Shown here: positions 17,021-41,110 of the stretch, one piece after another
Position numbering within the stretch: position 1 is the stretch's first letter
How the letters are laid out: every line of letters starts with the position of its first letter
DNA from: Lophium mytilinum
Lineage: Eukaryota; Ascomycota; Dothideomycetes; Mytilinidiales; Mytilinidiaceae
Assembly: GCA_010093605.1 (NCBI GenBank)
Contig: MU004186.1
Coordinates: 2,088,616 to 2,152,615, forward strand
Reading direction: 5' to 3'
Length of the DNA: 64,000 nt
Notes under the pieces: generated by a model
Told to the model about the DNA's origin: nothing
What the model saw: the letters and a program-made list of their open reading frames with translations, nothing else
Database searches by the model: none
Translations under genes and position numbers: made by a program

Positions 17021-18178
17021 CTATATCTGCGCCTTCTCCACCCGCCTCCCTGTCTCATCAAACCAAATCTTCTTCCCACTCCTCAAGCTCTCCTGCAGCG
17101 CACACCCGATCGCAACCGCCTGCACCGCGCCCTTCAGCTTAAACGGCAGCTCGGTGTTCTCCAAGCATGCCGCCGTGAACTCGTTCGCCTCAACCACAAA
17201 CGCATGCTCGAAGCGTCCATAGTAGTTCGGCGGGATCTCGCGCCTAATACCCGTCGACTCGCTCAACTCAACCAGGTTGGTCTGGGGGTTCGCATTCACG
17301 GTGATCTTGCCCTCAGTACCGATGATCTCAGTCATGTCGTGCTGGCCGGCCGCCATCATGCGCGAGCTGTAGAAGTACGCGATCTTGCCGCCCCAGAACT
17401 CGACGACGCCGACGCCGTTGTCGACGTCGCCGTGGGTGCGGAGTTCCGGCTGCACGGCCGTGATGCCGACGGCGTAGCACGACTTGACCACCGAGTCTTG
17501 GCCGAAGAACCATAGCGCCAGATCGATGTCGTGGATGTTGCAGTCGACGAAGATGCCGCCGCTGAACTCGGCGTAGGCGACGAAGAAGCCCGAGGGGTCG
17601 AGCTTGTCGCAGGTCTGGGAGCGGAAGACGGAGGGGCGGCCGATGGTGGAGTCGTTGACGCGCGCGAAGGCGTCGCGGTAGGAGGGGTCGAAGCGGCGGG
17701 AGAAGCCGCAGAGGACTTTGAGGTGGGGTTTTGCGCGGGCGGCGTCGAGTACGGATTGGGACTGGTAACATGTTAGTGAGAGGTACGTTGGAAAGGTTTG
17801 ACCTGAGACTGGATGGTGACGGTATGGGGCGATGATGGGTGAAAAACTCACAATTTCAACACTTGTGCTTAGGGGCTTCTCGCATAGAACGTGCTTGTCC
17901 GCGTTTATGGCCTTGATGGCCTGCTCGGCGTGCACAGTGGTGACGGTCGCAACGACAACGGCCTCGAGGCCTGGGTGTTTGAGCATCTCATCGTAGTCGG
18001 TGTAGATCTTGGTGCCGAAGGGAACCAGGTTCGTCTGTGCCCAGGCGATTTCGCTCTCCTCGGGCGTGAAAGCGGCAACCAGCTCAGCCCGCGGAGTGCG
18101 GTTGAGGAAGTGCAGGGCGTGACGGGCACCCATGCGGCCTAGGCCGGAGACAGCGACTTGGAGCTTGCGAGGACCCAT
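17021..18178 (-). CDS. Gfo/Idh/MocA oxidoreductase, inositol 2-dehydrogenase-like
   Basis: An NAD(P)-dependent sugar/polyol dehydrogenase. The N-terminal Rossmann fold has VAVSGLGRMGARHA, then the family signature VLCEKPLSTSVE. The substrate domain has GFSRRFDPSYRDAF, SGGIFVDCNIHDIDLALWFF (the catalytic D..H region) and VEFWGGKIAYFYSSR. The closest family I recognise is myo-inositol 2-dehydrogenase / D-chiro-inositol 3-dehydrogenase (IolG type), which has the same RRFDP and GG.FvD...HD.D blocks. The ORF is uninterrupted, but a 90-nt segment (17851-17762) with a GTGAGT donor, CTAAC branch and CAG acceptor splits a conserved helix (TSVEI/SQSVLDAA), so the mature protein should be 355 rather than 385 residues. 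Nearby inositol oxygenase and inositol transporter genes support a role in inositol metabolism; the substrate remains inferred. Confidence 0.88.
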   Translation of the reverse strand: MGPRKLQVAVSGLGRMGARHALHFLNRTPRAELVAAFTPEESEIAWAQTNLVPFGTKIYTDYDEMLKHPGLEAVVVATVTTVHAEQAIKAINADKHVLCEKPLSTSVEIVSFSPIIAPYRHHPVSGQTFPTYLSLTCYQSQSVLDAARAKPHLKVLCGFSRRFDPSYRDAFARVNDSTIGRPSVFRSQTCDKLDPSGFFVAYAEFSGGIFVDCNIHDIDLALWFFGQDSVVKSCYAVGITAVQPELRTHGDVDNGVGVVEFWGGKIAYFYSSRMMAAGQHDMTEIIGTEGKITVNANPQTNLVELSESTGIRREIPPNYYGRFEHAFVVEANEFTAACLENTELPFKLKGAVQAVAIGCALQESLRSGKKIWFDETGRRVEKAQI

Positions 18179-19156
18179 GGTGGTAGATTTGGGGAGAATT
18201 GAGGGATTGAACGGGGGAATTGGAGAGGAATTGGGCAGAAGAGGTAGAAGAGATAGCTCAGAGGATCTGAGAAGGCGAGCGAGAAGGATATGGAGGAAGT
18301 GACGAAGCTATCTCTATCAGTCTCAACGAAAAGTGGGAGCGGTGAGGTGCACGTACAGTAGCCAGTCGAGCTCAATTTCAATCACCAGGGATCGTCAATG
18401 CTTGGATCGCGGGAGAAAAAGGGTGGATGTAGATGAAGATGGCGGTCCACAGCAGGCGGACGATTTCAAGACTTATAGTCTTCACGAGCAGCAGCTAGAC
18501 ACGGTACATGCACGACAAGAACACGTCTGGCTACATATTTTCTCCCCACCTGGTGGGAGAAGCTCGGTCCCTGCCTCCCCCAAACCTTCCGTAACAAAGC
18601 TCCCCCGGCCGTTGAGGTGTTCCATCCCCGATGTGGCCATGGCGTAGCCAGGAAGCAGGAATATTCGCCTAGATCCCACGCCATGTGGAGTTTTGGTGGA
18701 GTCCCTGGCGCGTATCGTGGCAAGGGGTAAACTCGGCATATGACCCCGCCGCGGGGTGAATGGCGGGGAGCCCGTGTCGGGCGCATAATCTATGTGGGTT
18801 CTGGTCAGCTGGAGGCTTCACGATGGGCAGAGTTGCTGTATTGAGTGGAGGTTTGGCTTAAGTTCGGTGCCTGGCACATGACTGCTAGAAGGAGCTTTGA
18901 CCATTCTCATAACTCCGAGCTTCGAGCTGTCCATTTCCGTCCATCGTGAAGCTTGGATGCTTCAGATTGCTTTTGGCATTTCCAAATCAGTCGCTTCGGG
19001 AAGAAGTTGTGACCACGCGTCGTCCTAGGTCAGGGGTTGCGCAATTTGCATTTGGTAGACAGCGCCAGCATTCACAAGATGGTCAGTGTAGTAGAACGAG
19101 CTCCAGAAGAGAGGTGATGTACAGCTAAGTTGTCTACAAAGCTAGGAAATCGAAAA
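18179..19156. other. Intergenic; promoter of the Gfo/Idh/MocA gene
   Basis: About 980 bases. The left side is the upstream region of the minus-strand dehydrogenase and the right side is the 3' flank of the polyol dehydrogenase. Only short shadow ORFs are present. Confidence 0.4.
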
Positions 19157-20491
19157 CTATAGACGCGCCTTGTCCTCTTCATCAGTCTCAATGACCACCT
19201 TGATCACCAGCTTGCCGTCCACATCTTTTGTGTTGCCCGCCATGTCGAATGCCTGCACGGCAGACTCGAGGCCCTTGTACCTATGTGTGACCAACTTAGA
19301 GAAGTCGGGGTAGTCTGGTCCCTTCTTTGATACGACCTCAATGCCTGTGGGATACGTGTTGGCGTAGCGAAAGACGCCGACGAGGTCAACTTCGCGGAGT
19401 GCGGCAGCTGATATGGGGAGGGTTTGGATTGGCGTGCCCATGCCTATTAACAACACTTTACCGCCAGGGCGAGTAGCCTGTTATATTAGCTTTCGAATTG
19501 AAGGGTGGAGGAAGGTTCACTCACAAATATAGCTGCTTGGAGGCATGACGGCACTCCGGTGCACTCGAACACGGCATCAACCTCCACCGCAGGCTGACCG
19601 CTTGACTTCTTCACCTTGCCAACTTCAGCTGCCGTCTCTTTTGCTATGGCCAGATTCTCCTCGATAGTGCTTCCTCGCTTCATGGAGACTGTGTATCCCT
19701 TATGCGCAAACGAGTTCTTGACGGCAAAGTCCACGCGTCCGGAATCAATGTCAGCTATTATGACAGTGCTCGCGCCAGAAATCTTTGCCATTGCGGCCAC
19801 CAAAAGCCCCACGGCGCCTGCTCCGAAAACCAGAACTGTACTCCCAGTCGGAAGGTTTGCTCTTCTTGTCGCATGAATTGCTACACCCAGTGGTTCTAGA
19901 ATTGCTCCCAGGTCTAGTGAGACATCTTCCGGTAGTCTTTCTAATTAGCTTCCGAGGACTCAGATCATGGCAGAAAGACCTACCTGTGACACCACGCCGC
20001 AGGGTGGTTGATTCTATCTTGCAGTGTACCTTGCGCGTGAGGAAATGCTTTCGCAGAGCTCCTGAAGCTCATAGCTTTGCAAATGTTGTACCTCCCTTCT
20101 CCACACCTGTCACACTCTCCACAAGGCAACCCGACTTCTAGCGCTACCTTATCCCCAACTTTGAAGTCTTTGACTGAAGAACCCACACCAACTACGACAC
20201 CTGCGGATTCGTGGCCCAGGGCCATAGGCTCTCGCACCAAGATGTCGCCATTGCGGTAATGACGGTAGTAATGGAGGTCAGAGCCGCAAAGACCAGTGGC
20301 CCGAATTGCTACCTGGAGCTCATCTGCGTTTGGTGGAAACAGACTTCTACTTTCCTACATAATGTCAGAAAGCTTCACCACGAAATGAGCATGTGACATA
20401 CAATCCTCAAATCTTTCGCACCGTGTAGTACTGAGGCTCTGATCTGACGTGTATTCTGCTGTGTGTCAGGCGACTTGGTTGAGGAAGACAT
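19157..20491 (-). CDS. Zinc-dependent polyol dehydrogenase (sorbitol/xylitol/L-idonate type)
   Basis: A medium-chain dehydrogenase. Four exons (20491-20402, 20354-19984, 19936-19525, 19477-19157) total 1194 nt, or 397 residues, all in phase. Catalytic zinc ligands are in GLCGSDLHYYRH and ALGHESAGVV; structural zinc cysteines are in GLPCGECDRCGEGRYNIC. The nucleotide-binding motif is VFGAGAVGLLVAAMAK, with IADID closing it, which suggests NAD. The sequence is sorbitol/xylitol dehydrogenase-like (INHPAAWCHRLPEDVSLDLGA). It is divergent from an SDR 504 bp away, an arrangement that recalls the bacterial L-idonate 5-dehydrogenase/5-ketogluconate reductase pair. Exact substrate unknown: xylitol, sorbitol, L-gulonate and L-idonate are all reasonable. 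Confidence 0.9.
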
Positions 20492-20995
20492 GATGGAGGA
20501 TGCTGAGTGTTAATTGAATTGTATGGTAGTAGTACTGGTAGTAGCAGAAAAGTTAGAAAAATTAGCTGTGAACAATCTTCAAACTTTTGAATAACGCGAC
20601 GCACGCGCCGAGGCCACCTGTATGACCGAGAAAGCCATGGATGGCCTCGACGCAAACCCGCCCCGAAGGATGCATGACGGGCTGCGGGGTTTCTTTCCTG
20701 TTGCGAGTGGCAATAGGAAGAATTCTGGTCACTGTCGGCGAATGAAGCGGGACATCAGACACCGACGATCCACTCACGATGCTCTCTCTCCCATTTGCCT
20801 CACCCGCAGCAGCACGGCCCGGCCAGCCCACGGATTAACTGACGCCGTGCCATCCGTTGAAGACCAGCCCAGGTACACGCGCCCCGATGGCTCTGACACC
20901 GCGACTAAAGACATCTCGTGCTCATGGCTTCTGGTCGTCTTCAGCAGATCCAACACCAGATTGACCCGAAGCGTCCCACTACTACCACCAACACC
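20492..20995. promoter_or_regulatory. Divergent promoter, polyol dehydrogenase / SDR
   Basis: 504 bp separate the two start codons, so both genes probably share control elements. No binding site is certain. An in-frame ATG at 20918 could extend the SDR by 26 residues (Gln/Thr-rich), but the family start fits 20996 better. Confidence 0.5.
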
Positions 20996-21845
20996 ATGAC
21001 TTCCGTACAGCATTTGTTCTCTCTAGAGGGCCAGACGGCTCTCGTCACAGGCGGCACCCGAGGGATAGGTCAAGCAATGACCCTCGCCCTCGCTGAAGCT
21101 GGCGCAGACATCCTCCTCGTCCAGGTACACATTCGCTCCAACAACCTCGAAAACCAACAATACTTACTAAAGCTCCCAGCGCGACACCTCCAACCAATCC
21201 ACCAAAGAAGCCATCGAAGCCCTCGGCCGCCGCGCAACTATATACGCCGCCGACCTCTCTTCTCCCGCCTCCGTCGCCGCCCTCCTCCCATCTATCCTCA
21301 AGAGCGAACCCAATACCCGCATCTCCATCCTCCTCAACTGCGGCGGCATTCAGAAGCGCCATCCCTCCCACCAATTCCCAACCGAAGACTGGGACGCCGT
21401 CATCCAAGTCAATCTCAACGCCGTCTTCACCCTTGCCCGCGATGTGGGCGCACATATGCTTGCCCAACCTGCAGACCTCCCCGGCGGCCGGAGGGGTAGT
21501 ATCATCAACATCGCCTCCCTCCTCTCCTTCCAAGGCGGGCTCACCGTTCCCGCCTATGCCGCTTCAAAAGGTGGTGTTGCACAACTCACAAAAGCGTTGA
21601 GCAATGAGTGGGCTGGGAAGGGCCTCACGGTCAACGGGATTGCACCAGGGTATATTGCGACGGAGATGAATACGGCGCTTATGGAAGACAAAGACCGCGC
21701 TACAAGCATATTGGCGAGGATTCCGGCGGGTAGGTGGGGAAGGCCGGAGGACTTTAAGGGTGCTGTGGTGTTTTTGGCGGCGGCGGCGAGTGCGTATGTG
21801 AGTGGGGAGATTTTGACGGTAGATGGGGGGTGGATGGGACGGTAG
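20996..21845 (+). CDS. Short-chain dehydrogenase, gluconate/2-deoxygluconate dehydrogenase-like
   Basis: Two exons (20996-21124, 21180-21845) give 264 residues. The cofactor motif is [19 protein letters not shown] stands in for the usual NNAG, then [12 protein letters not shown] carries the catalytic Ser region, YAASKGG the Tyr-x-x-x-Lys, and [13 protein letters not shown] follows. The end, [16 protein letters not shown], is typical of the KduD/IdnO group (2-deoxy-D-gluconate 3-dehydrogenase, 5-keto-D-gluconate reductase). The intron (55 nt) has GTACAC and CCCAG borders. The divergent zinc dehydrogenase suggests consecutive steps on a sugar acid or polyol. In A. niger, D-glucuronate is, to my recollection, degraded through L-idonate and 5-keto-D-gluconate by such an MDR/SDR pair; that assignment here is inference. 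Confidence 0.9.
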
Positions 21846-22091
21846 AGGGGGTCGGGTTGAAAAAGTATGATTTGGATAATGAATGAGTATTAGATCTCGA
21901 TAATGAAGTTTCAGACTACTGGGTAGGGCCTCATGGGGTGCTGTGGCCAATGTTCAGGACGTCTGAGAGAGACATATGATATGCGCAGTAAGAAAAGGGG
22001 ATCGACCTTATGGCTCCGGTTCGCTGCATATGACAGATAGCTACGTGACGGCCATACAGACCCTCTCATTGTTCCTCTCAGTTTTCCTACT

Positions 22092-22440
22092 CGCGAATGA
22101 CATCGAGCGACCTCATGAGCAAGAACGTCGACCTTTGCTCGGATTCAATTTCCGCAGTCTTGATACCTCCAACTCTTTGGTTCCGCTTTGCTCGATCGCA
22201 TATCACCTCGAGGGTCTCCATGCTCGTCAAATGACCGAAAGAGTCGATTTGATTTCATAACCTCTCATATTTGCCTTTTTTCCTCCCACTTTTCTTGTTC
22301 GCATATGACCTCGAAGGTCTTCAGGACTTGTTAAGTGACCGCCAGAGTCGATGTCAGCTCTCGGAGTTTCCATGTTTGCTATCTTTTCCCTCATTTTTCC
22401 CATTCGCATATGACCTCGAGGCTCTCTAGGACTTGTCGAA
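22092..22440. repeat. ~104-bp degenerate tandem repeat, about four units
   Basis: Units begin near 22092, 22198, 22300 and 22405 with variants of CGCATATGACCTCGAGG, followed by TCTNCAGGACTTGTNAANTGACC and AGAGTCGAT. Spacing is 102-106 bp. The leftmost unit is most diverged. Confidence 0.6.
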
Positions 22441-25400
22441 TGACCTTACAAAGAACATTTGAAGCAAACCTGATCTACATGTGACCAAGAGAGCCTTCTA
22501 TATGACAGCCTCAGATCTTTCCTTTGGCATCTATCTCATCAGCTCACTGCAAATCACACGCTTTCTTATACTCATTTTCTCCTTTTTATAACACTGCAGA
22601 GAACGCCAAGTATAATGAGCAAAACCCAATCTGTAAGGTTTCATGATTTCATACCATTCTTCATCTAGGGACGTACTAATTGCATATCAGGAACAAGCTG
22701 AACGTGCGTCTGTTTTGCTCCAGCGCGGGCTCTAGAACTGCACGTCCGGTCGTCCAAGCACGGTTGTCAAAAAATGGGCATTCACATCCACGATGGTTCC
22801 GCGTGGACAGTGAGACTTCCTTTCGCAGACCTTTACGAATTGGCGGTGGGCCTACGTGTTGTTCTGGGGTCCTTCCGAATGAACACTTGCTGCTCAGGGC
22901 CTGTATGTCTTCTCTTTGCGTTCGTCTGGAGCAATGTTCGAATCAAAACCTGCTAGACATCCATTACATGGCTCGTCCCTCTGTTTCTGGTCGGCGGACA
23001 GATCACTTCAACTCTCCTTGGACGAAACCTTCTGGGACGGTTACCCGCTCCTGACGCAAAACCTTGTTCGCTTAGGTAGGAATCTGTGGGACAACAAGCC
23101 TTTGCCCGGATATCTGGTGCCAGCTGGTGACCTGGTCAGGAATCAAACCGACCTACCAAACTCCGCATGGATCGTTCCCTTCTTCGGTCTGTAATCAAAG
23201 TTCTGCAAAACCACTCCACATCCCACTCCATGACCCATCCTCCGATTTTGTTTATGCGGTGGGAACTTGTTTAGTAAAACTTGGCAATCAGGAACCCAAT
23301 GGCTCGTCATTCTCCTGTCCGAAAACCCTTCAATTCAGAAACCTGCACTGCAAGCGCTTGACAAATTGGCATCCTGCTCTCTATCCAAATCGGATTGCCT
23401 CACAACAGGCTCCCCGATGACCTCATGGCTCGGCTTCGGTTCCCGTTCTTGTCTTGACTTTCGACTGGGTCGAAATGAGCAGTGGTAGAGGCACATGAAC
23501 CAATCTTTCGCGTCTCGACGCCTCGGTTCAATATACTCCAACACGCTCAAAACTGCAACCGCTGCACCTTCATGGTCTTCTCTCTTCTCTAAACTGCGTC
23601 ACACTGCAGACTTAAGCCCTTCTGGAGAGCGAGAAGCATGAACAGATATCCTGGCACTCCGTCGGCTTGAATCAGGTTATATTCGGTATAAACTCACCCG
23701 TAGCAAGTTGATGGTGGCCTGCGCTCGTTCGCGTTCCGCAGACAATAATCCGTGGCTCAGTTGAGATCTGCGAGTCAAACTCAACTTCCATGACTGTAAC
23801 GTTTCAGAGTCTTGTCGCTGTCTCTCTATGCACCTTTATATTAGAAACTGAAGCAGAAAGAACCGATGGATTGCTTCTTCCGAAATCAGGCTCGGTTGAT
23901 TTTAGGTTCAAAAGACAACAACGAACCGTACAATGGTCCCCTGTTCCGGTCCTGGCACTTCGCCGCCTTCGGTTTGGCTATACTCGCTCAAAACTATTGG
24001 TGGCCAGACCCGATGACTGTCCACCCTCGTCTGCGCTCTTCAAATAGAGAAAGCCTATCTCCTCATGGATCCGCCGATTGAGAGAAAAGTTCGTTGGAAG
24101 GAATGGTCCAGCACTCGGACGCTGCCCCTTGCCGTATCTGCTGCATCAAAACCACGGCAAATGATTTCACATGGCTCTTTTCCTCCCTTCAGGCTGGCTC
24201 GGTTGTATGATCGATAGACAACGATACGCACTATGGTCACCGTTTTGGTGCCTGTCTGGGTCTGGTCAGACGGCACCCGGTCAAACACGGGATCTTGAAA
24301 GCATTGATGGCAATTCGCGCTCTTCTGGCGTTATAAACACCGTCTTCCAAATGTACACTTGGGCCGACTGCCGACGGAATGTTGTCCTACCTCGGACGTG
24401 GATACCACTCGACGGATCAGGGTGGATACTATACCGGAGAGAATGTGCCGTTCATCGATCACCAGGAGTTGAGTGGGTTGTATGGACAAGACGTTCCGCC
24501 AAGCTCCATCGAGGAAGGCATGTAAGTGGTGCTCACTGACGATACACGTCGCTATCAAACTAGAGAGAGTTTGACTTCCCCTACAAGCAGCTGGTCTTTC
24601 CGTGGCGTAGGGGATAAGTAGCCGTTCTGTCGGTGACACTAACAGCTTGCCCCTTATACATCTGGAACAAGATAGTGGTTATACGTTGTCCAAGCAAGTT
24701 TTCCGGCGCGTCGGACCTGATCCCTTGACTCTATATCTAGCATCTGCCGAGAATCAAATACTGGAAGCAGAGCTCAATGGAGATTAAGTCAAAAGAGCGA
24801 GTACAGACAACCGATGGACCAGCGACTGAACCGAGCAGTATAAGCATCGCAAGCGTTTCACTTTGCCCTGTGAAGTGGTAGTACTACAAAATCGCTTCTC
24901 AGTGACGGCGTTCAAATCTGAGCACACCCTCTTGCCGTGGAGTGACATAAAAAATCTAGACCCGAAGAAGCTGATGGCTCGAGACCGGCATCTGGACCTC
25001 TATTTACCATCTGGCAGGCAGTCAAACTGGAAAGGGAAAAGAGACATGCAGTGGTGCATCAGTGCTCAGCTTTATTCACCTAAGAAGAACAGCTAGCCTA
25101 CTGAGCGACCCGTTATAACCGAACTGCGACTCCGAGAATTCGACAATCATCGATTCACCGCCACGAAGTCTATGGTTTCTCTAGTCTGAGTCTAGGTCGA
25201 CTATTTTACTTATAACTTCATTACTACTTCGATATACTGCTCTCTTTATATCAAATGGCTATACAAGCTGTCATCATGGTCATGCCCAGAGGTTCCTTTT
25301 CGCCGGATAGCGGATCGCAAAGTCCAAAATCTCGCTCAGTGTCCAGAGTTTAAACTATCTTTCAAACTTGCTGCAATCAACGCTCATGGTACTCGGATTG

Positions 25401-25880
25401 TAGAAACCTCCGAGGAGCTGCTTGCGAATAGCTGCTACTACGTCTGACGGTACTTGGGAAGGGGGGTTTGCAAAACGTCGCAATGCCAGCGGCCATGGGG
25501 AGGACCTCCAAGCCGTGCCGTCATTGGGTGTCTGATGGCCCGCGGCGCGGAGAAGACTTCCGCAATCACCTTCCCATGTTGACACCGATCATTCCGTCCG
25601 GCAACTTGCGGTTCTCATGTCGATCGAAGACGATGGAACCAGAACCGTGAGAGACACCTAGTGATACTATCAACATCGCGCGGCAAGTTAATCGAAGGCA
25701 GCGTGAAGGAGGGTCAGTAAAACGTCCAACACTCGAACCTCATGTCCGTCCCTCGTTCTGGCCGACTCCGAGTCATCAAACTTGATGTATACATCCTACT
25801 TTATATCAATCAGCATCACCGGGTATACCTTTCAAAACTCAGTCTGAGATTCCCGAATAGGGCAAGAATTGAGGGGGAGG

Positions 25881-26030
25881 GGAATCGAAAAATATAATAC
25901 GGAGTTCTACAATGTCACCTTCTCTGGAGGGGATTGAAAAATGCGACCGAGAGCACATCAATATCTCCTTTTCCGGAAAGGCTTGGATAATGCAACCGAG
26001 AACACTACAATCTTCGTTCTTTTCCGGAGG
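25881..26030. repeat. ~50-bp tandem repeat, three units
   Basis: Three consecutive units (from 25881, 25931 and 25981) share GGATTGAAAAATGCGACCGAG, then CTACAAT..C, then CTTTTCCGGAG. The units differ at many positions. Confidence 0.55.
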
Positions 26031-26933
26031 AGCTGGTATACCCAGCCCACTGATACTTCCTGATCGGAACTGATCAGTACGCTCAGGGCATCTTTCAAAT
26101 GATCCTGAACGGCCAGCTCATGGTTCCAGAACCGGAGCAGCGTTCTAGGATTAGATCAAAACATCCTCCACAAGCTCTGCATGTGCTGCGGCGCAGTGTG
26201 GAGAGGAAGATCAAAAACGCCAACATCGCCACCGTATGTTGCAGAGCTTCAACATTCCACTTCGTCAAATAATGGTTGCTTGTTTGTCGCAGCCGTGGCT
26301 AAGCTCACCTTGCTTCCACTCGTATATTCAAATCGAGCATTACAGCCAAGCATACACTTCAAAACGCCAATCTACACCTTTCCATGGGACCGGAGTCTGC
26401 ATCGGGTCAAAACTTGCCTCAAATGAGGCATTTCCAGGCTACCATGGCCTTTTACGGATGCGAGATATCACAACCCGACAATCAGGAGCAGTTGTTCTAG
26501 AAGCAAAACCTATCCACCCGGAACACACACTATCCGTCTGTCTTCCGGAGCCGTGGCTTAAAGTACTGGACTGATACTCGAATATCAAGCAATTCCAGTA
26601 TCTTTGAAAATAGAACACGATGCAGAAGCCATGGACCAGGATTCCATGCTGTGTCGAGAACTCAACTCAAATCAGCACTTACTCCTGATCTATTACTATA
26701 ATCTACTAGTGGAGGAGGTGGATCAACAGTATCCACCCCACTGATCTATGTTCGTTCGTTTTCCGAAGAAGCGGTCTTTTGAAAACGTCGAGATCGGCAG
26801 TTAAATGTGATTGGAGGCACCGACAGCGCCCGGGAGCTTTGCGTAAACTATAACCCCTGAAAGCGCATCCTAGCTGCGGGAGAAGGGGATCAAAATCGAG
26901 GACGTACACTAGCCATGGGAAGGAGTCGTAAAA

Positions 26934-27101
26934 ATGAACGCAACTCCATCTAATGATCGCACCGCTCTGTGGATCGAGCGAGAGGGTTCAAAAGAAGCAA
27001 TCCAGGTTATTGATGAGTTCCGGACCTTGGAAAATAATTCTTCAACACCACCGAATGGATTGGGAGAAGAAGTACTGCAAACGCTGCACACAAACTTGTG
27101 A
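26934..27101 (+). CDS. Doubtful small ORF, 55 residues
   Basis: ATG to TGA encodes MNATPSNDRTALWIEREG, then SKEAIQVIDEFRTLENN and a C-terminal ...EEVLQTLHTNL. Composition is protein-like and helical, but it is alone in the repeat tract and I know no family. Confidence 0.15.
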   Translation: MNATPSNDRTALWIEREGSKEAIQVIDEFRTLENNSSTPPNGLGEEVLQTLHTNL

Positions 27102-28303
27102 TGGAGAGCACTGTTGGGTTTGCCCGGCTTCGTGGGCATGTTCCTGCTTGTGGCAAAGCCTCTGACAATTTGTGTACTCGCGTAGTGGTTTCTGGAACGC
27201 ATGAGTCTCAGGACTTGCAAAATTCCACCCGACAGCTTCTAATGGACTGGGATCTGCGGTGGGAAGAAGGACATCGAAACCTAGCTCCGAGAACTGTCAT
27301 GTGGAGAGCGAGTAATATCTCACTTCGTCCAGATCCATGGTTGTCTGCCGCAGTCACCAGCGACGATAACAATCAGGACACACCTGCCCAGATGAGCCGT
27401 AGAAGTTCAAACTCACCGACTCAGTCATCTATGAGCCGGGAGCTGTTGCTGAGAGTACGCGGCTAATCCGCTAGTGAGCATCAGGATATCAAACCACAGC
27501 ATCAAGATGTCGAATGACCTCGCATTGGTGTATCGATATCCTAGATCTGCAAAAGGTGAAGCATGCGGGAACAATGGTTGGGAGTATCCCGGGAATCTCT
27601 TTCAGGAAAGATGGGCTCTATCATCCAGCATGGAGTTTTGGGGGTTGGCGTCTGGCCTATTTCTTCGGAGGTCTGGATGTGTGAAACTCTGGCACGTGGA
27701 TGCATTGGCTAAGCGCATCCTGCTCGGCTCGTTCTAGAAACATGATCGTTGAGAACAATGAATGGAGTTGGGAGGTTTGTGCGGGTTTAAACTAGAACTA
27801 TTTATATGGAAATTTATTCATCAGATAGAAGCACGTTAGCAAGACTGTTTGACGTTCGAATTGAGATTGACGAAAGGGAAGTGATTGTTTAGGAACATGC
27901 TCTCTAATAGTGCTAACTTTTACGTGTCAAAACAACGTTACCAATCCTAATAGGTTTTGGACATGTATTGACTTAAAGGTCCAACTCTCTAAACTCCGCA
28001 CCCCATGCTTCTGACGTTTAGCGAATTCGGAATCGTAGACAGTATCGTCTACCTTTGCGTACTCCAGACTTGATTTACGCAGGTAGGTTCCTTACAACGT
28101 CGGCTTTATAATAGTTAGAAAGATGACTGCGAGGGAATATTTCACGCGTCTTGCTCCCAAATAGCATATCCGCGTCTTGCACGTGATGTAGAGAAGTCAA
28201 ATACAACTTTTGGCGCTTCTATAACTATTCATATTCTAGAGCCTGGATGCGGGTATCCTACAATCTATCATCAACTTCCGTCTCAATGCAACACCCCCAG
28301 CAC

Positions 28304-29330
28304 CTACTGCTTATCCGGGAAGCCCATGTTCACGCCGAATGCTGGATATACGAAACGCGTGAAGCCCTTCGCTTTCGATATGCCCTCTAGCTTCTCCATA
28401 TCGTCGGCGTCGAGGGTAGTGAGTTTGCGGTTCGATTCGATACGGGCGGGTGTTACTGATTTGGCGAGGACGGAGGAGCCGCGGGCAACTACATTCAATT
28501 AGTATGATTCTATGAAATGAGCACAAGGATTGAAACTTACCGTGGTAACTTAATAGCACCGTTCCCGGCTCCACCGAGTGCTTCTTCGCGACTTCAATCA
28601 CGACCTCCTCTTTCATCAATGGGCTGCCTGTGCTTCCTAACGGACTATACGCAGTGATGTGGATTCCCTTGCCCTTGCAAAAGTCGACGATTTCTTGCTG
28701 GGGCAGATACGGGTGGTTCTCAATCTGGTTAACCGCGGGCGTGATGGTGGTGGTTGGCAGCAGTTCCTCGAGGAACTTGACAGAGTAATTGGCCACGCCA
28801 ATGGCCTTCGCTTTGCCGGTTTCCGGGAGCTTCTCCATAGACTTCCACGTATCGATGTGGGTGGTGGACTTGTCGAGGTCACGCGATCCATCGGGGAACT
28901 TGGGGAAGAGGGGGTGGTTTCCTGGAGAAGTGTTAGATGTTGCGTCAATTGGGCACGCGATGTGGCGATTGCACTCACCCTTCGGGTTCATGGGTACCGG
29001 CCAATGCACCAGGAAGAGGTCCACGTAGTCCAGTCCCAGTGCTTTCAGGCTCTTGCCTAATCCCTCTTCTACGCGCGTGTGGAATGTGCACCATAGTTTC
29101 GTGGTTATGAACAGCTCTTCCCGCTTCACGACCTTCTTCGCCAGCACCTCCTTCAGCGCCTCTCCCACCTCATCCTCGTTCTGGTAGCAGAAAGCGCAGT
29201 CAATGTGCCTGTAGCCAGACTCAATCGCATGAACCACAGCAGCCTTGACCTGGCCAGGCTCCGATTGCCACGTCCCGAGCCCAAGGGCTGGGATGGTGGC
29301 GCCGGTGTTGAGGGGTAGCGGGGTATTCAT
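28304..29330 (-). CDS. Aldo-keto reductase (glycerol / uronate reductase type)
   Basis: An NADPH-dependent carbonyl reductase of the AKR superfamily. Three exons (29330-28979, 28921-28541, 28488-28304) give 305 residues from MNTPLPLNTGATIPALGLGTWQS. An in-frame ATG at 29399 would add a 23-residue Arg/Pro leader and make 328. The signature block is GYRHIDCAFCYQNEDEVGEAL with the catalytic Asp and Tyr; the catalytic Lys is in FITTKLWCTFH and the His in VDLFLVHWPVP. Cofactor-side motifs include KSVTPARIESN. It resembles fungal glycerol dehydrogenase/Gcy1 and D-galacturonate/D-glucuronate reductases. Intron 1 is 57 nt and stop-free in frame. It is divergent from inositol oxygenase, whose product is D-glucuronate, so reduction to L-gulonate is an attractive inferred role. 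Confidence 0.9.
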
Positions 29331-30550
29331 AGTGGGTGTTGGATGGAGGATACGATCGGGAGTGCGCGCGAGCATGAACTTGGAGAGGGTGGGATTCATA
29401 GCGGGCGAGGGGCTGTGGTTGATATAGTCCGGGGAAAATCGCGGAGTCCCGCGAAATGTTACTTCATGTTTGCATGCCGTGTGGGTAGAGAGGGCGCGCT
29501 GCGGGTCGCCCCACGTATCGGGAGAAGTGTCGGCCCTGGACGCCGGTGAATGGGCGGCCGCTGTTCTCTCGCCGTTCTCTCGGGCCGGGCAGTCGTGCTG
29601 TGCTTAGAGGGGACTGTGACGCTGTTGTGCATTATTTCTGATACATTCACTCTAGACGCTGCCGTTTGGCTGGAGGGGAGTCGCACGGTTATTTTGCACG
29701 TGCTCTACTCCTAATTCGGATTGAAAACGGCGACGTGACCGGGCAATCATTGTTGCGAGAGGGGGCAAGTCTTCCGCCTGCTTCGCCTCTCCGCATCTTC
29801 TTCTCTCCATTATTTCATCATTCATCGCGGGGCACGAGATGCTACCCCTCCTTCCCCAAGCGGAATCTATATCGAAACATTCTCGAAGGCCGGCAGTCCC
29901 TGCATCGCAGCCACATGATCGCCACGCTCCAACGGCCCTCAGTCGCCTCCGCGCAGTCGGTGTTGCTCCAATCGCCCCAAAGAAATGCCGGGCACGCAGG
30001 TTGCGGCGAGAATTGACATTTTCGGCGGGCGCATGGCAAGTCGGATGTAGCCCTGCGGGAACAGTGGAGCCCCGGGAGCCACAACGGCGTCGCAAATCCA
30101 ACCATCCCTCCACCTGACGTAGACCAGTGCACGATATTTCCAATTGTGGACGCATCTCGTCCACGACCTGTTCGCCAGCCCCGCTGAGGGGCCGTCATGC
30201 CTGTCTGAAGACGGCGAACTGCAGAGATTGCGTTGCATCTGGCATGCATTCTGATATCGACCCGCACGAACATCGCCTGACGAGTGGAGTCTAGATTTGA
30301 TTCCAGATGCTCGTGGTAGGTAGGGGAGAATTGCGCTGTTGAGGGGCTGTTTCTTTCCATTTTTTCGTTGCTACGGAGCTGAACCGTGTGTCGCTGCTGA
30401 AGTGTCAAGTACACGCGAAGCTGCTTCTATTCAAATACTCAGCGTCGAGGTAGCTTTTAATCTCATCATCACTTTACTTCATCTCTTGCATCCTCAAGCC
30501 TGTCTTCTTTGATACCCATTTGCATACCTCAATCCCTCACTACCACCAAA
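29331..30550. promoter_or_regulatory. Divergent intergenic region, AKR / inositol oxygenase
   Basis: About 1.2 kb between the two start codons. Overlapping ORFs on both strands (29652-30414) are GC-rich chance frames with no family resemblance. The region just before the oxygenase (30480-30550) is pyrimidine-rich, as in fungal core promoters. Confidence 0.45.
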
Positions 30551-31522
30551 ATGGCCCCCGCTCTCCTCGAAACCCCGAACATCAACGAGACCTTCAACGA
30601 CCGCGATGGCCTCGCTCTCGAAGCAACCTCCGACGCCATCGACGAGGTCAACGTCCTCAAGGCCGCTCTCAAAGTGAAGAAAGGCACCGCCACCCAAGAA
30701 GAGAAAGACATCTACGAAGCCTCCCAATTCGACGCCGAGAAGGACAAAACGCAGTTCCGACAATACGAGGAAGCCTGCGACCGCGTCAAGAACTTCTACC
30801 GCGAGCAGCACGAGAAGCAAACAGTCGCCTACAACCTCAAAGCACGCAACACCTTCCTCTCCTTCACGCGCGCCGAGATGACCATCTGGGAAGCCATGGA
30901 GAAGCTGAACACCCTCATCGACGAATCCGACCCGGACACCTCGCTGTCCCAGATCGAGCACCTCCTGCAGTCCGCCGAGGCGATCCGCCGCGACGGCAAG
31001 CCGCGCTGGATGCAGCTTACCGGCCTGATCCACGACCTAGGCAAGCTGCTCTTCTTCTTCGGTGCCGAGGGCCAGTGGGACGTCGTCGGCGACACGTTCC
31101 CCGTCGGCTGCGCCTTCGACCGCAAGATCATCTACCCAGACACCTTCGCGGGGAACTCGGACTCCACGGACCCTATCTACAGCACGAAAGAGGGCATCTA
31201 CACCCCGGGCTGCGGCATGGATAACGTCATGCTCAGCTGGGGCCACGACGAGTATCTCTACCACATCGCCAAGGCGCAGAGCACGATGCCTGATGAGGCG
31301 CTGGCGATGATAAGGTATCACTCGTTCTACCCGTGGCACTCGCAGGACGCGTATAGGTGGATGATGAATGAGAAGGATGAGAAGATGTTGGAGGCCGTGA
31401 GGGCGTTTAATCCGTATGATCTGTACTCGAAGAGCGATGAGGTGCCGAAGGCGGAGGAGCTGAAGCCGTATTATATGGAGCTTATTAAGGAGTTCTGGGG
31501 CGAGGGAAAGGTGAAGTGGTGA
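30551..31522 (+). CDS. MIOX: myo-Inositol oxygenase
   Basis: A mixed-valent di-iron enzyme of the HD-domain fold that cleaves myo-inositol with O2 to D-glucuronate. Single exon, 323 residues from the ATG at 30551, which sits in a good AAAATGG context; an in-frame ATG at 30509 is less likely. It has the N-terminal KTQFRQYEEACDRVKNFYREQH block, the di-iron ligands in LTGLIHDLGKLL, VGCAFD and the YPDTF substrate loop, GIYTPGCGMDNVMLSWGHDEYLYH, MIRYHSFYPWHS and the C-terminal FNPYDLYSKSDE. Every block I expect from eukaryotic MIOX is present and the length is normal. It is divergently paired with an aldo-keto reductase and lies 8 kb from an inositol-type transporter. Confidence 0.97.
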   Translation: MAPALLETPNINETFNDRDGLALEATSDAIDEVNVLKAALKVKKGTATQEEKDIYEASQFDAEKDKTQFRQYEEACDRVKNFYREQHEKQTVAYNLKARNTFLSFTRAEMTIWEAMEKLNTLIDESDPDTSLSQIEHLLQSAEAIRRDGKPRWMQLTGLIHDLGKLLFFFGAEGQWDVVGDTFPVGCAFDRKIIYPDTFAGNSDSTDPIYSTKEGIYTPGCGMDNVMLSWGHDEYLYHIAKAQSTMPDEALAMIRYHSFYPWHSQDAYRWMMNEKDEKMLEAVRAFNPYDLYSKSDEVPKAEELKPYYMELIKEFWGEGKVKW

Positions 31523-33102: not shown

Positions 33103-34745
33103 TCATAGTCCAACCTTCTCATCATCGACGGCCATCCTCTCGCGTCTCCATACCTTCAAAGGCATAGAATCCGGGCCACAGTTCATGCTCTCCTTCCACT
33201 CTGGCGTCCACGACTGGTCGGGGAGCGCAAACTCGTATCGGTGAAGCACACTGCTCAGCAACACAGTCTGCTCTAGGTAGCTGATGTTGCGGCCAATGCA
33301 GCCGCGAGCGCCCGCGCTGAACGCGATAAAGTACACTTGCAGGTCCTTGCTATCCGGCTGCAGCCAGCGCTCGGGGATGAACTTTTCTGGCTCAGGGAAG
33401 ATGGTCGGGTCGCGGTGGGCGACGTATGCAGACATAGAGACGGACGTCTCACCGGGGACGAAGGTGCCTTCGATGGAGTGGCCTCCAGGCGGTGTGCGGC
33501 GGGGCAGACCGAAGGTAGTTGGGGGGGTAATACGCATGCTCTCATCGAGACATGCGCGGAGGTATGGCAAGTGGCGCACCTTGTCATAGGGCGCAACCAC
33601 TTCGTCGTCATCGAGCACCGAGTCGATCTCGGCGCGAAGTTTCGCTAGGACAGTTGGGGTCTTGCACAGCCAGTACATGACATTGTTCATGGCGATGGCG
33701 GTGGTGTCGGAGCCGGCGTTCATCATGATGGACACCTCGGCAACGATTTCGCCCCACTCGAGGTTGTTGGGATGTCCGTTCTTGTCTTCCATCAGCGCTT
33801 GGAAGAAGTCGTCGAGCTTCTCGCCGGCTTGGTAGCGGCGCAGACGTTGCATGGCGCGATGCCAGACGATGTCGTTCCAGCCCTCGTTAAGTTTCCAGAG
33901 ATTCTTGAAGCAGGTGGGCAGTACGCGAGTGATCTTCTCATTGAAGTTGTACCAGTCGTAGGCCCAGACGATCTGAGACTGAGCGCGAGCGGTACCATGC
34001 AGGCAACTGCGGTAGGAGGGGATAGTGTGGAGTTCGCCGTTCATTTTCTCACCGGTGACGAGGTCTGAGCCTTGGTCTAGGAAACCAAGACGCTCGCTCA
34101 GTCCAATATCGGCGATGGCATCGAGAGTGAAGAAGTTGGACCAGGCGCGGTAGTCGAAGGTCAGGTCTTTTGGGTCTGGACGAGGGGCTTCTTTGGTAAG
34201 GGGTGCCGTGCAGTGCTTGTCACAGCCGGTGATGAAGCGAGCAGTTTTGTCGCTGACTTTGTGTTCCCAGCCCTCAAGGTTCTTAAGGGCGTAGGCGGAA
34301 GAGAGGACTTTCCGCTTGCGCGCGTGTTCGGGCTTGTCGAGCACATCTGCAAGATGGAAATGTGTGCCAGCGAGGGCTGAGTAAAAGAGATCCTTGGTGC
34401 AAGGGGAACCGTGGCCGTAGATATCCTGGAGGCTGTGTCAGTGATCGTTTCTCCGTATCATTTATAAGAGTTGCTCACCTTGATAGCTTGTGGACGCCCG
34501 TAGCTCAACGAATTTGGTCCAATGCGAATGACTGGGTGCGTCTTGTGCATTTCATAGAGAGTTTTCGACCGGAACCCCTTTCTGGCTTCCCACATGAAGC
34601 CCAGGTTTGTGATACCCGCAATGGGGTTGATGGCGGGGTACTTCCGGAAACCCTTAGGATCGCGGAAGTAGTTGGAAACGGGCCGGATGATGAAGTAGGT
34701 GACGAAGAAGAAGGCGGCACTCGCTGCCACAATGATGGAATACAT
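33103..34745 (-). CDS. Cytochrome P450 (CYP53/benzoate 4-monooxygenase-like)
   Basis: A membrane-bound monooxygenase of 529 residues from two exons (34745-34479, 34425-33103); the intron joins AIK to DIYGHGSP. The N-terminal anchor is IIVAASAAFFFVTYFII. The I-helix is NAGSDTT, the K-helix ExxR is DESMR, the PERF region is FIPERW, and the heme-binding loop is FSAGARGCIGRN with the proximal Cys. The overall layout (YGHG.., HARKRKVLS, GLPR.TPPGG) resembles fungal para-hydroxylases of aromatic acids such as benzoate 4-monooxygenase, but the family cannot be fixed without alignment. It shares a 959-bp promoter region with a P450 reductase, suggesting a dedicated electron-transfer partner. Confidence 0.9.
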
Positions 34746-35704
34746 CTTGAAAGACTTTCAGGGGGTGCGATCAGGTAGATAGGACAACGTCCTTTCGATA
34801 TAACGTTGGGTTGTACCCCTTGCCTCGGCAATCAGAGATTTTTTATGGATGTAGCCGTAGAGGCAAACACAGAAGTTTTAAGATCAAAGAGTAGAGGGAT
34901 GAATGGAGTAGAGAGTACGAAATGTGATGCTGATCAAAGGACTTCGAACGTGGTGTTCTCCTATATACCTTGATATCAGACAAGAGCCCAAAGAAGAAAC
35001 ATGGACAACGGAGGCACGCGGAGGGTGCCCAACACTGCCCCTCCTGCCCCACCACCCTCTTCCGAGGGACTCAAGACCTTTCTCTCCAGAAGGAGAACCT
35101 TACTCGCAGCAACCGCACCCGCAATCCTAGCCATCGAGATTCTGGGGAACCCGATGGCGTTGAGCTTTGGGCAGCAGTCCATGCACAGGGCTCGATTCAA
35201 GCTTTGCAGGGATGGCGGCGAGAATAGCTGCGTCGAGTCAGTCGTATCAGGCAATTCGGTCATGAAAGTTGCTGCTTTGAGAGGGCGAGGAAGGTTGAAG
35301 AGAGGTGCTGAGGCTGGGCAGGTCGGCCCGGGTGGCGTCCGATGCGGAAGTTTTAGACGACCAACCCCGGAGTTTTCTTTACCCCACAATTCTCCTTCAC
35401 CAGGTTCGATCCGCCCGGGTCTTAGGGTACCAACGTGGCCCTGCCATGGGGTCAGGCGACGCCGAACCGATATGCATGGTGGGGTGGTCTGGACAGGGTC
35501 TTCTAAATGCGGGATTGCCTCTTTTGACCGTCAACACCATTTCTGCCGATCTCAGTGGAGAATTGCTGTCATTTGCCTTCTCCGTTTCAACAGGCCTGAT
35601 TTCCTCTTGCTATATAGGGAATCCACAACGTTCCTGTTCATTACCTATGCCCTGATTCCTGCGTTCTCTTCCGTCCTCATTGTCTTTTTTGATACCCTAC
35701 AGTC
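34746..35704. promoter_or_regulatory. Divergent promoter, P450 / P450 reductase
   Basis: The two start codons are 959 bp apart. A 250-codon plus-strand ORF (35001-35753) fills much of it but overlaps the reductase start in another frame and shows no family features, so I treat it as chance. Confidence 0.5.
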
Positions 35705-37921
35705 ATGTCTGCCCCTCTATTTTCAAGCAATGGCTTGCCTGAGTCTCTGCTAGAGCTCACTCAGCTGGCAAAGCCTTCCTCCTACGCAGATATCGCTGCC
35801 TTGGGTCTAGTTGCTCTTGGTTCAGCAGGCTATCTATTGAGAGGAATCGCGTGGGACAAACCAGATCCGTATAACCACTTGTTTTACGAAAGACCACAAG
35901 AGAAGGACTCTGCTAGCAGAAATGCCCAAAAGGAGACTAGGAACATAGCCCAGAAGCTTGAGGAATCTGTAAGCATCTCTCCTGAACAGTTTTCTCTTCT
36001 CAGACACTGATAAGTGTAGGAAAAATCCCTCGTCATTTTCTGGGGATCGCAATCTGGTACTGCCGAAGCCATCGCGAACCGACTCGCAAGAGAATGCCAT
36101 CTCCGATTTGGCTTGAACTGCATGGCCGCAGATCTCTCCGACTACGATGCTGAAACCATCGCCCTCATTCCTCAGACGAAGTTTGCAATCTTCATCATGT
36201 CAACGTTCGGCGAGGGCGATCCGAGTGACAACTCCGCTGGCTTGTGGGAGTGGGTGTTGAAGTCCACCGACATCAAACTCGAAAACCTCCGGTACATGGC
36301 TTTCGGTCTTGGGAACAGCAACTACAAATACTACAACCGCGTTATCGACGTTGTGACAGAAGCGCTGGACAAGTTTGGCGCCCAGAAGTTGATGCCAGTA
36401 GGCCGAGCGGACGATGCCACAGGCGCCACAGAGGAAGACTTTATGGGATGGAGAGACGACCTCTTCACCGTTTTCCGAAGGGATTTGCACTTCGAGGAAC
36501 ACGAAATCGCATACGAGCCTACACTTTCTGTCGAAGAGGACGAGTCTCTCGATATCATCGACCTGCATCACGGTGAACCAATGCATCCACGAGAGAATGC
36601 CAAATCAGCAGCGAGCTGCTCGCCCATCAAAGCACTGAATATCCAATCTTCCCGCGAACTCTTCAACTCCTCGTCCCGCAATTGCATCCATATGGAGCTC
36701 GACATCAACGACCACTCAGAACTGCACTACAAGACAGGTGACCATCTCGCCGTCTGGCCAACAAACCCGGACAACGAAGTGGAACGACTTCTCCGCGTAT
36801 TGGGTCTCTCTGAGCGCCGTGATGTCCCCGTCAGTGTCAAGTCTCTGGACGAAACCGTCAAAGTCAAAGTCCCTACGCCAACGACCCTCTCCGCCCTCTT
36901 CCGCTACTACCTCGAGATCTGCGCACCCATCTCCCGTGATACCATGGCCAGCCTCGCACAATTCGCCCCTAACCCTGCAATAAAGACCTACCTCAGTACC
37001 CTCGCCACCTCAAAGGATGCCTATGCGGACTTTTTGACCCGCAACTACCTTACTCTCGGCCGTCTCCTCGAAGCCGCTCTCGCCTCCGACTCCTCAACCC
37101 CGTCCACCTGGCCCACTCTCCCCCTCTCCTGGCTCCTCGAAACTCTTCCCCACACCCAACCCCGCTACTACTCCATCTCCTCCTCCTCCGCCATCTCCCC
37201 CCGGACACCCGCAATCACCGCCCTTGTCTCCAGCACGCCCCTCCCCTCCGACCCCTCGCAATCCATCAACGGCGTCACAAGCAACTACCTCCTCGCCCTC
37301 TCCCAATCCCACAGCTCCTCCTCCTCCATCACCCAACCCACCTCATCCATCTACACCCTCACAAACCCCGCCCTCGCCCTCTCCGGCGACTCCCCAAGCG
37401 GCCACAAACTGCACGCCCACATCCGCAAATCGAAATTCAAGCTCCCCCTCTCCTCCCTCACGCCTCTCATCATGGTCGCTGCCGGAACCGGCCTCGCGCC
37501 CTTCCGCGCCTTCATCTCCGAGCGCGCGCGCCTCGCGTCCGTCGGCAAGGAGATCGGGCCCATGGTTCTCTTCTTCGGGTGCCGCGACCCGGCCGAAGAC
37601 TACATCTACCAGGACGAGCTGGAGGGATATGTGCGGCAGCTGGAGGGGAAGCTGAGGGTCGTGACGGCGTTTTCGAGAGTCGGAGGGGAGAAGGTGTATG
37701 TGCAGGACCGCGTGCAGCAGCATGAGGAGGAGGTGGTGAGGTTGTTGACGGAGGAGGCAGGGAATTTCTATGTTTGTGGGCGCGCGAGTATGGCGAGGGA
37801 GGTTGGGAAGGTGGTGCAGGGCGCGGTGGGGAGGAGGAAGGGGTGGGGGGAGGCGGAGGTGAAGCAATGGAGTGAGGGGGTGAAGAGGAGGGGAAAATGG
37901 GGGGAGGATGTTTGGGGTTAG
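35705..37921 (+). CDS. NADPH-cytochrome P450 reductase
   Basis: A diflavin reductase that passes electrons from NADPH through FAD and FMN to microsomal P450s. Two exons (35705-35968, 36020-37921) give 721 residues. There is a membrane anchor at about 27-46. The flavodoxin domain starts VIFWGSQSGTAEAIANRLARE and continues with STFGEGDPSDNS and GLGNSNYKYYN. The FAD domain has TGDHLAVWPTNP and RYYSISSS. The NADPH site has MVAAGTGLAPFRAFISER and FFGCRDPAEDYIYQDEL, and the C-terminus YVCGRASMAREV...EDVWG carries the FAD-stacking Trp. Length and domain order are normal. An extra Ser/Thr-rich stretch lies in the FAD domain near SSSSSITQPTSS. Because it is paired with a P450, it may be a second, specialised CPR rather than the general one. 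Confidence 0.95.
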
Positions 37922-39198: not shown

Positions 39199-39394
39199 AA
39201 AGCAGGTTTGAGTTCTTCTTCACAGCATGCAAATCACCAAAATGCCCAGTTGTGTCTATGGAAGCAGTACATTTAGTCTACTCTATCGCCACATACAAAA
39301 AGATTCGTTCCATCTTAAAAAATCCAGCCCACGCTCCAAAACCGTGCCAAGCTCAAAGTATGTACAAAAGCACACCCTTTCTTTCTACTCTTCT

Positions 39395-41110
39395 CTAAAC
39401 ATTCACGGCCATCTTGGTGTCCGGGTCCACATGAGAGTGCATGCCCTGGGACTTGACCTCCTTCTGGATCTCGCGCGCCTTGCGCACACAGGCGCGGAGA
39501 GAGGGCTGAGCAAACACCTCGCGGATGTCCTCGAGGGTCATGCCCTTGACCTCAGGGTAGCACCACCAGACCGCCACCCAGCCGAGGATGCAGATAGCGG
39601 CGTAGAAGCCGAAGGCGCCGGAGGGAGTGGTGTTCTCCATCTGGGAGAGGAAGGTGGAGGCGACGATGACGTTGGAGCCCCAGCAGGTCATGGTCAACAT
39701 CATGGTGCCCATGGCGCGGACTTCCATAGGGAAGAACTCGGAGCTCAACCAGGCGGTGTTACCCATACCAGAAGAGTAGAATCCAACGTAGCAGACCATG
39801 GAGACGAGGACGATAATGGCGGGGGCGCCGACTTTGGTGCCTGCCTTTAGAGATAGATCGTGGTTGACTGGGATCCAGTGGAAAGCAACAGCTGCTACAA
39901 CAAGGAAGAAACCCATGAATTGCATGGTGCAGAGCAAAATCCGGCGGCGCCCAATTCGGTCGACAAGCATCAGGTTGACCCAGGTGAAAAAGAAGTTCGT
40001 TCCGGCGATAATAGTACCCACTGCGACGGGATTTGAGAAGCCTACGAGTGCGAAGAGGGTCGAGGAATAGTACATGAGCGAGTTGAAGCCACCAAGTTGA
40101 GAGATGGCCATGAGGCCGCAAGCGCAGACGAGAGCACGGAAATTGCCAGGGATGACGTAAAGCTGCTTGAGAACCCACCACTGGCTCTTGCCGGCGGTCA
40201 GGTCCTTGGACTCCTGGACGTGAATGGTGATGTGCTGGACCTTCTGGTCGACCTGGAGGTCGGTGGCGTGAGGGTAGATGGCGCGGATGACAACGCGGGC
40301 TTGGTCGGCCTTGCCATGGTAGATGAGCTGGCGAGGAGATTCAGGGCAGAATGGGAGAAGGCAGCAGAGAATGATGGCAGGGATAGCACCACCACCGACC
40401 ATGTAGCGCCAGCCACCTGTAATTTGTCAGTGATGCTCAGTGGTAAAGGGGGCCAGAAATGTCAACGTACCAACAACTTTTGCGAATCCAGCACCAATGC
40501 CGTAGGAAACCAATTGGCCACCAGTGATAGACATGTTGTCCAAGCCAATCATGCGTCCGCGATACTTGGCAGGGGAGACTTCAGCGATGTACCTGCAAAA
40601 CAGTTAGCTTGCGTTTTTCGGCAAAGGAAGCGGGAAGGCGCACATTGGCACGATCATAGCTGCTGATCCAACACCAAAGCCGACAACAAGACGTCCGACA
40701 GTCATCTGAGCGAGTCCAAAAGATGCAGCTTGAAGAATGGCCCCGAGGATGAAGAGAACGCATCCGACGTAGATAGCAGGCTTGCGGCCAAACCTGTCAG
40801 CCGTGGCACCGGCGAAGATGGCTCCGAAGAAAGCAGCACCAGAAGTGACGGAGGTGATCAGTTCTTTTTCGTTCGAGGAGAGAGTGTGACCGAGATCACG
40901 ACCGATGTAGACGAGGACGGCGGAGATGATTCCAGTGTCGTATCCGAAGAGCATACCGCCAATGGCAGCGGTGATGGAAACTAGCCATGAATATCTCCCG
41001 GTCTCGGTCTGCTCAATGGTGTCGAGGGAGTCGAGAGTCTGCCCTTCGCTGGCGACGTGCTCGACATGGTTGCTGCCGAGCTTCTCATCGACGAACTCAG
41101 AGTGGCCCAT
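39395..41110 (-). CDS. MFS sugar transporter, myo-inositol (ITR) type
   Basis: A twelve-helix proton symporter of the sugar porter family, in the plasma membrane. Three exons (41110-40644, 40592-40471, 40416-39395) total 1611 nt, or 536 residues. I prefer the ATG at 41110 (MGHSEFVDEKLG) to an upstream in-frame ATG at 41230 followed by a low-complexity Ser leader. Signatures are GGMLFGYDTGIISAVLVYIGRDLG, ADRFGRK, VGRLVVGFGVGSAA, the spliced YIAEVSPAKYRGR, PESPRQLIYHGK, GGFNSLMYYSSTLF, GTNFFFTWVNLMLVDRIGRRR and PEVKGMTLEDI. The N-terminal and helix-7 blocks match fungal ITR1/ITR2 inositol transporters better than hexose carriers. Nearby inositol oxygenase and inositol dehydrogenase-like genes agree. 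Substrate is inferred. Confidence 0.9.

Follow-up and report, generated by a model that had tools for sequence, protein, structure and literature searches.

According to published reports, D-glucuronate is degraded in Aspergillus niger through L-gulonate, 2-keto-L-gulonate, L-idonate, 5-keto-D-gluconate, and D-gluconate, and the enzymes in order are GaaA, an unknown L-gulonate 2-dehydrogenase, GluC/GluD, GluE, and GluF (PMC4870679, PMC5306355, PMC5814732). GluE is described there as an NAD-dependent alcohol dehydrogenase and GluF as an NADPH-dependent short-chain dehydrogenase (SDR) of 265 aa, the gene of which had earlier been annotated as a 2-deoxy-D-gluconate 3-dehydrogenase (PMC4870679, PMC5306355, PMC5814732). 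The gluD and gluE genes are divergent with 455 bp between them (PMC5306355), and the L-gulonate 2-dehydrogenase was still unidentified in 2026 (PMC13158570). Here, we analyzed a 64-kb stretch of Lophium mytilinum DNA (contig C6, positions 2088616–2152615; hereafter, the window), in which genes for a myo-inositol oxygenase (MIOX), an aldo-keto reductase (AKR), a Gfo/Idh/MocA oxidoreductase (GFO), a zinc dehydrogenase (ADH), an SDR, and a sugar transporter lie in 24 kb. With some reserve, we consider it probable that they form a loose neighborhood for the catabolism of inositol and D-glucuronate, with the functions set out below.

Gene models came from a small, splice-aware gene finder for which the long frames of the window itself served as training data, and the models of ADH, SDR, NADPH-cytochrome P450 reductase (CPR), the transporter start, and the regulator were completed manually. 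The gene products were scanned against Pfam with curated cut-offs, and also against NCBIfam models and solved structures; the genome searched comprised 43.18 Mb in 24 contigs. Short introns and domains restricted to fungi point to a fungal origin. An earlier note on this DNA had named the six genes and called their families. Each gene was found near the place it gave, with an open frame and catalytic motifs, and the family calls are upheld by the Pfam scores given below, all of which exceed the curated cut-offs.

MIOX and the enzymes around it

The MIOX gene (30551..31522, forward strand; 323 aa, one exon) is the single match to MIOX (PF05153) in the genome, with 419.5 bits against a cut-off of 25 and the domain covered from 1 to 249 of 249. 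Its motifs EHLLQSAEAIR, LIHDLGK, WGHDEY, RYHSFYPWHS, and FNPYDLYSK align with the solved inositol oxygenases 2huo and 2ibn, and we take the His/Asp motifs among them to be the di-iron ligands. The AKR gene (28304..29399, reverse strand; 328 aa, three exons, start uncertain) carries Aldo_ket_red (PF00248, 160.2 bits) and is divergent from MIOX across an intergenic region of 1151 bp (29400..30550). The best solved structures for AKR were 4gac, an alcohol dehydrogenase [NADP(+)] (249 bits), and then aldose reductases (247 bits), and no substrate can be named from them because these scores differ too little. AKR is a candidate D-glucuronate reductase. As a point against this assignment, AKR matches occur at nine or more other places in the genome, with pieces of 37–55% identity.

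The GFO gene (17021..18178, reverse strand; 355 aa, two exons) encodes a member of its family, with GFO_IDH_MocA (PF01408) at 85.7 bits and the C-terminal domain at 70.4 bits. It contains the EKP lysine and a D-x3-H motif, both of which are presumably catalytic. Its best solved structures were the inositol dehydrogenases 4n54 (185 bits) and 4mkx (184 bits), followed by 3cea (172 bits), deposited as a myo-inositol 2-dehydrogenase; entries named inositol 2-dehydrogenase/D-chiro-inositol 3-dehydrogenase reached 69–75 bits, the 69-bit entry, 3ec7, being named a putative dehydrogenase. As the nearest solved structures are inositol dehydrogenases, the substrate of GFO is likely an inositol, of whichever isomer. 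PMC5969746 describes the structure 4N54 as a scyllo-inositol dehydrogenase of L. casei. Together, the single MIOX in the genome and a GFO of the inositol-dehydrogenase type bear out the link to inositol that the earlier note had drawn. GFO has one paralog in the genome, on contig C12, with 49% identity. The idea that this paralog belongs to a gaaA-like pair was dropped, as no aldolase-like neighbor was seen among the gene models there, which were inspected by eye with no family search.

The bacterial context of GFO was taken from the best 80 of 529 confirmed loci, with identities of 43–48%. A relative of RpiR-type regulators was present in 74 of the 80 loci, and relatives of what we take to be an ABC permease and an ABC ATPase were present in 68 each. 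All 75 loci counted held a second GFO gene, five having been dropped because of other coordinates. In one locus (L065), this second GFO exceeds the cut-off of the model for a bifunctional inositol dehydrogenase, and a close copy (96–97%) occurs in two further loci. The other iol-type genes of that locus recur in 1 to 3 of the 80 loci, the methylmalonate-semialdehyde dehydrogenase in one and a sugar-isomerase-like protein in three. This context mildly favors an inositol as the substrate of GFO.

The ADH gene (19157..20491, reverse strand; 397 aa, four exons; PF08240/PF00107, with ADH_N at 90.8 bits) and the SDR gene (20996..21845, forward strand; 264 aa, two exons; adh_short_C2, PF13561, 169.7 bits) form a second divergent pair, 504 bp apart (20492..20995), so that both divergent pairs proposed in the earlier note are present. 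The best NCBIfam model for ADH is the L-idonate 5-dehydrogenase PRK09880, and ADH has the zinc-site motifs and an acidic residue (IIADID) that are common to many polyol dehydrogenases; by rule, we take the acidic residue to indicate the NAD type. SDR carries an arginine (QRDTS), by rule presumably an NADPH-type cofactor motif. The cofactor motifs of ADH and SDR thus fit GluE (NAD) and GluF (NADPH). SDR also shares just the short stretches LFSL and GWMGR with the ends encoded by the published gluF primers, and its length of 264 aa compares with 265 aa; in the genome, its top match scored 482 bits and the one after it 96 bits, at 32% identity. The leading NCBIfam models for SDR are KduD (TIGR01832) and gluconate 5-dehydrogenase. 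ADH and SDR resemble the enzymes of the terminal GluE and GluF steps.

The transporter gene (39395..41230, reverse strand; 576 aa, three exons) carries Sugar_tr (PF00083, 330.8 bits). The model starts at 41230, and the earlier note had chosen the inner ATG at 41110, which would give 536 aa. We call it a putative ITR-type transporter; no inositol transporter was present among its 23 matches to solved structures. One nearer paralog lies on C16 (four pieces of 38–47% identity and 67–84 bits each); the next other match in the genome has 103 bits and 28% identity, and short pieces elsewhere reach 46%. Directly past the span described in the earlier note, and absent from it, lies a gene for a Zn2Cys6 and Fungal_trans_2 protein (42480..~45202, forward strand, 3ʹ exons approximate; PF00172 40 bits, PF11951 27 bits), which is divergent from the transporter and may be a local regulator.

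From these genes, we infer substrates, pathway order, and regulation as follows. The transporter would import myo-inositol, which MIOX would convert with O2 to D-glucuronate, and AKR would reduce D-glucuronate to L-gulonate. L-Gulonate would then pass through 2-keto-L-gulonate to L-idonate by enzymes encoded elsewhere. The GluE-like, NAD-dependent ADH would oxidize L-idonate to 5-keto-D-gluconate, and the GluF-like, NADPH-dependent SDR would reduce this to D-gluconate, which would enter the pentose phosphate pathway via a gluconokinase encoded elsewhere. GFO would interconvert inositol isomers through inosose and so widen the substrate range, and the Zn2Cys6 protein would act as the local regulator. 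The family that includes GluC and GluD (2-Hacid_dh_C) matched at 16 places in the genome, none of them in the window, and in this proposal the two middle steps would be encoded outside it. A gluconokinase-type gene is present on C8 (173.5 bits, above the cut-off). The pathway outlined in the earlier note gained a coherent onward route through the GluE- and GluF-like pair, and no gene in the window is assigned to the middle steps.

Arrangement of the genes and alternative readings

Five genes from the oxidoreductase and transporter families named above lie beside MIOX in 24 kb, against approximately 0.12 expected (Poisson P ~1.7e-7); over all 24-kb windows, P is ~3e-4, or ~0.009 with the gene tally doubled. 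As the expectation comes from a rough, hand-merged tally of ~210 genes, the searches are lower bounds, and the gene set was chosen post hoc, these values serve as a guide only. For SDR together with either of the two transporter genes and either of the two GFO genes of these types, the probability that random placement puts all three within 24 kb of MIOX is ~5e-9, again post hoc.

Several observations weigh against the proposed neighborhood, and those on arrangement and regulation bear on the view that the genes are neighbors by chance. The pathway genes are not contiguous. Between them lie 6.46 kb without genes, from SDR to AKR, and a divergent pair of a cytochrome P450 gene (33103..34745, reverse strand; 529 aa, PF00067) and the CPR gene (35705..37921, forward strand; 721 aa, PF00667/PF00258/PF00175 on the second exon), and the earlier note mentioned neither of these two features. 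The four catabolic intergenic regions share one 7-mer (1.3 expected) and no 8- to 10-mers; the test is weak, with four regions only and with the transporter/regulator region taken as 41231–42300, although the regulator begins only at 42480. This null result counts mildly against a common regulator. A shared promoter motif was dropped as evidence for a cluster, as words of 7–10 bases were not above chance, and the lack of a TCCNCCAAT site in the intergenic regions is uninformative because control regions lack it too. Tight clustering is not supported, and a strictly defined gene cluster is not demonstrated; the enzymes are all of known kinds, the plausible route is in part novel by its arrangement, and the interpretation given in the earlier note is supported in part.

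According to the chance-neighbor view, which we judge rather unlikely, the AKR/MIOX and ADH/SDR pairs would be the sole functional units and separately regulated, GFO, P450/CPR, and the transporter would be unrelated sugar or xenobiotic genes, and the whole set would be a catabolic region flanked by housekeeping genes. The interruptions and the missing promoter word speak for this view, as does the abundance of such enzymes in the genome, with 105 SDR and 93 transporter matches. Against it, the specific subfamilies suit one route, and their random co-location is improbable, albeit by a post hoc reckoning.

Further contrary points concern the identity of the ADH/SDR pair. The PRK09880 score of ADH (194 bits) is far below the cut-off of 469, and the KduD score of SDR (300.5 bits) is below that of 338.85; being under the curated cut-offs, the NCBIfam scores of both proteins are leads to function and not memberships. 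Among solved structures, ADH scored highest with a ketose reductase and sorbitol dehydrogenases (244–254 bits), then 235 bits with L-arabinitol 4-dehydrogenase and 228 bits with xylitol dehydrogenase, and just 133 bits with the solved L-idonate 5-dehydrogenase 6dkh. The ends encoded by the gluE primers, MTVNST and ESGDD, have no clear match in ADH. Moreover, outside the window but on the same contig and strand, ADH has a paralog of 52–60% identity at a distance of 37 kb (C6:2069926–2071110; L045 1314–2492). This paralog could be the true GluE. The counterpart of GluE may be ADH, the paralog, or neither of them, and the orthology of the pair to GluE and GluF is indirect.

The structure scores of ADH would suit a pair serving another polyol or deoxy-sugar acid, of the sorbitol or KduD type, and unrelated to glucuronate, as would the top structures for SDR, which are named 2-deoxy-D-gluconate 3-dehydrogenase (211 bits). 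We nevertheless find this quite doubtful. The KduD-type name is a known misannotation of GluF, and no NCBIfam model scores higher with ADH than the E. coli-type L-idonate model. As GluE itself has low homology to other L-idonate dehydrogenases according to PMC5306355, the low 6dkh score is compatible with ADH being a GluE. Three further relatives (L053, L054, and L055) have 35–42% identity to ADH and its C6 paralog. Assignment of ADH as an L-arabinitol or xylitol dehydrogenase was rejected, because LadA (L-arabinitol 4-dehydrogenase) is L053, with 527 bits to 3m6i, and the gene nearest to xylitol dehydrogenase is L054, each at a separate locus.

GFO, too, stays below the cut-off of its best NCBIfam model, the inositol 2-dehydrogenase IolG (TIGR04380; 252 bits against 355), as does its bacterial relative L059 (307 bits). 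In Thermotoga, inositol is oxidized to scyllo-inosose by IolG and to diketo-inositol by the zinc dehydrogenase IolM, followed by IolN/IolO. That GFO and ADH form such a MIOX-independent route is very improbable, for, although GFO is IolG-like and ADH matches the IolM model (134 bits), ADH scores higher with the L-idonate model and with two L-threonine dehydrogenase models (160 and 155 bits), and the IolO model has no match in the genome, as against matches in 9 of 14 control genomes, IolN not having been searched.

The loose inositol/D-glucuronate neighborhood remains the reading that we prefer. An extension of it leftward was not retained, as near the ADH paralog just one JAMM-like and one hydrolase-like frame were seen, with no family search. 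As a separate observation on ADH, its C-terminus is ARL, which by rule presumably fits a weak peroxisomal targeting signal; the ends of the seven other modeled proteins do not fit it.

Intervening stretch and flanking genes

The stretch at 22000–28200 is free of genes over 6 kb and nearly unique, and a search for a gene between 22 and 28 kb gave just one weak model. It contains a one-stranded, two-part motif, TCAAA-N19/20-CATGG. TCAAA occurs 35 times on the forward and six times on the reverse strand (simulated, 13.8 ± 3.9), and TCAAA.{15,24}CATGG occurs 11 times forward and never in reverse (simulated, 0.2); in 11 cases, the first letter of ATGG comes exactly 25 bases after that of TCAAA. A profile made from the motif copies gave 18 matches here, compared with one on the reverse strand, 0–1 in eight other pieces of the window, and 0–2 on ten shuffles. 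Genome-wide, TCAAAN{18,20}CATGG had 495 matches and the backwards control 131. Autocorrelation revealed no clear period in the gap. Just 3ʹ of SDR (22187–22426), a 32-base repeat occurs in three copies, all imperfect, that lie 103 and 105 bp apart and each contain CGCATAT(C/G)ACCTCGA. The only other genome match found for the gap is that of 24360–24478 to a piece on C7 (818601–818706; L056), with 73% identity over ~106 bp. The C7 match sits in a frame that stays open up to where the piece stops. A short reading like it, MLSYLGRGYHSTDQGG...HQELSG, is present in the window; this segment is perhaps a gene remnant.

The P450 and CPR genes (33103–37921) are 959 bp apart. The solved relatives of the P450 are distant (best, 91 bits), and it probably stands outside the pathway. 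The farther flanks hold genes of the anthranilate synthase, UreG/CobW, and ATP synthase OSCP types, and an Rfam scan found two tRNAs in the window. On the right flank, there is an alpha-galactosidase gene (Melibiase_2, 56387–57858), for which, speculatively, galactinol (galactosyl-inositol) might be a substrate.

Comparison with known systems

Plant tissue commonly holds inositol and phytate, and the proposed route would thus bear on plant-associated fungi. Among the openly licensed PubMed Central matches listed, no description of a fungal MIOX/gluE/gluF cluster was seen by title or abstract start. If true, the proposal would join myo-inositol breakdown in filamentous fungi to the A. niger L-idonate/gluconate route for D-glucuronate and would name a candidate regulator, the Zn2Cys6 protein. 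It would also provide candidate short lists for the missing L-gulonate 2-dehydrogenase (PMC5814732, PMC13158570) and for a further D-glucuronate reductase in addition to GaaA (PMC5814732, PMC4870679), both of which are gaps noted in the literature.

IdnO, like IdnD, is a member of the L-idonate pathway of E. coli. The likeness to that pathway is that a zinc L-idonate 5-dehydrogenase acts first and 5-ketogluconate is then reduced (PMC4870679, PMC5306355), whereas ADH is distant by its PRK09880 score, and the genes here are eukaryotic and divergent. With bacterial inositol dehydrogenases of the IolG/IolX type, such as 4N54, GFO shares the Gfo/Idh/MocA family, the EKP lysine, and D-x3-H; in contrast, the host here is a fungus with MIOX, and GFO lies below the IolG cut-off. 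The A. niger D-glucuronate pathway is similar in its GluE-like zinc dehydrogenase, its GluF-like SDR, and a short divergent region between two pathway genes. There, however, the divergent pair is gluD-gluE (PMC5306355), whereas here it is a GluE-like and a GluF-like gene, with MIOX, AKR, and the transporter nearby and no 2-hydroxyacid dehydrogenase match in the window. Finally, Cryptococcus neoformans, with its ITR transporters and three MIO genes, shares ITR uptake and the MIOX step to D-glucuronate (PMC8561382), whereas the genome studied here has one MIOX match, with adjoining oxidoreductases.

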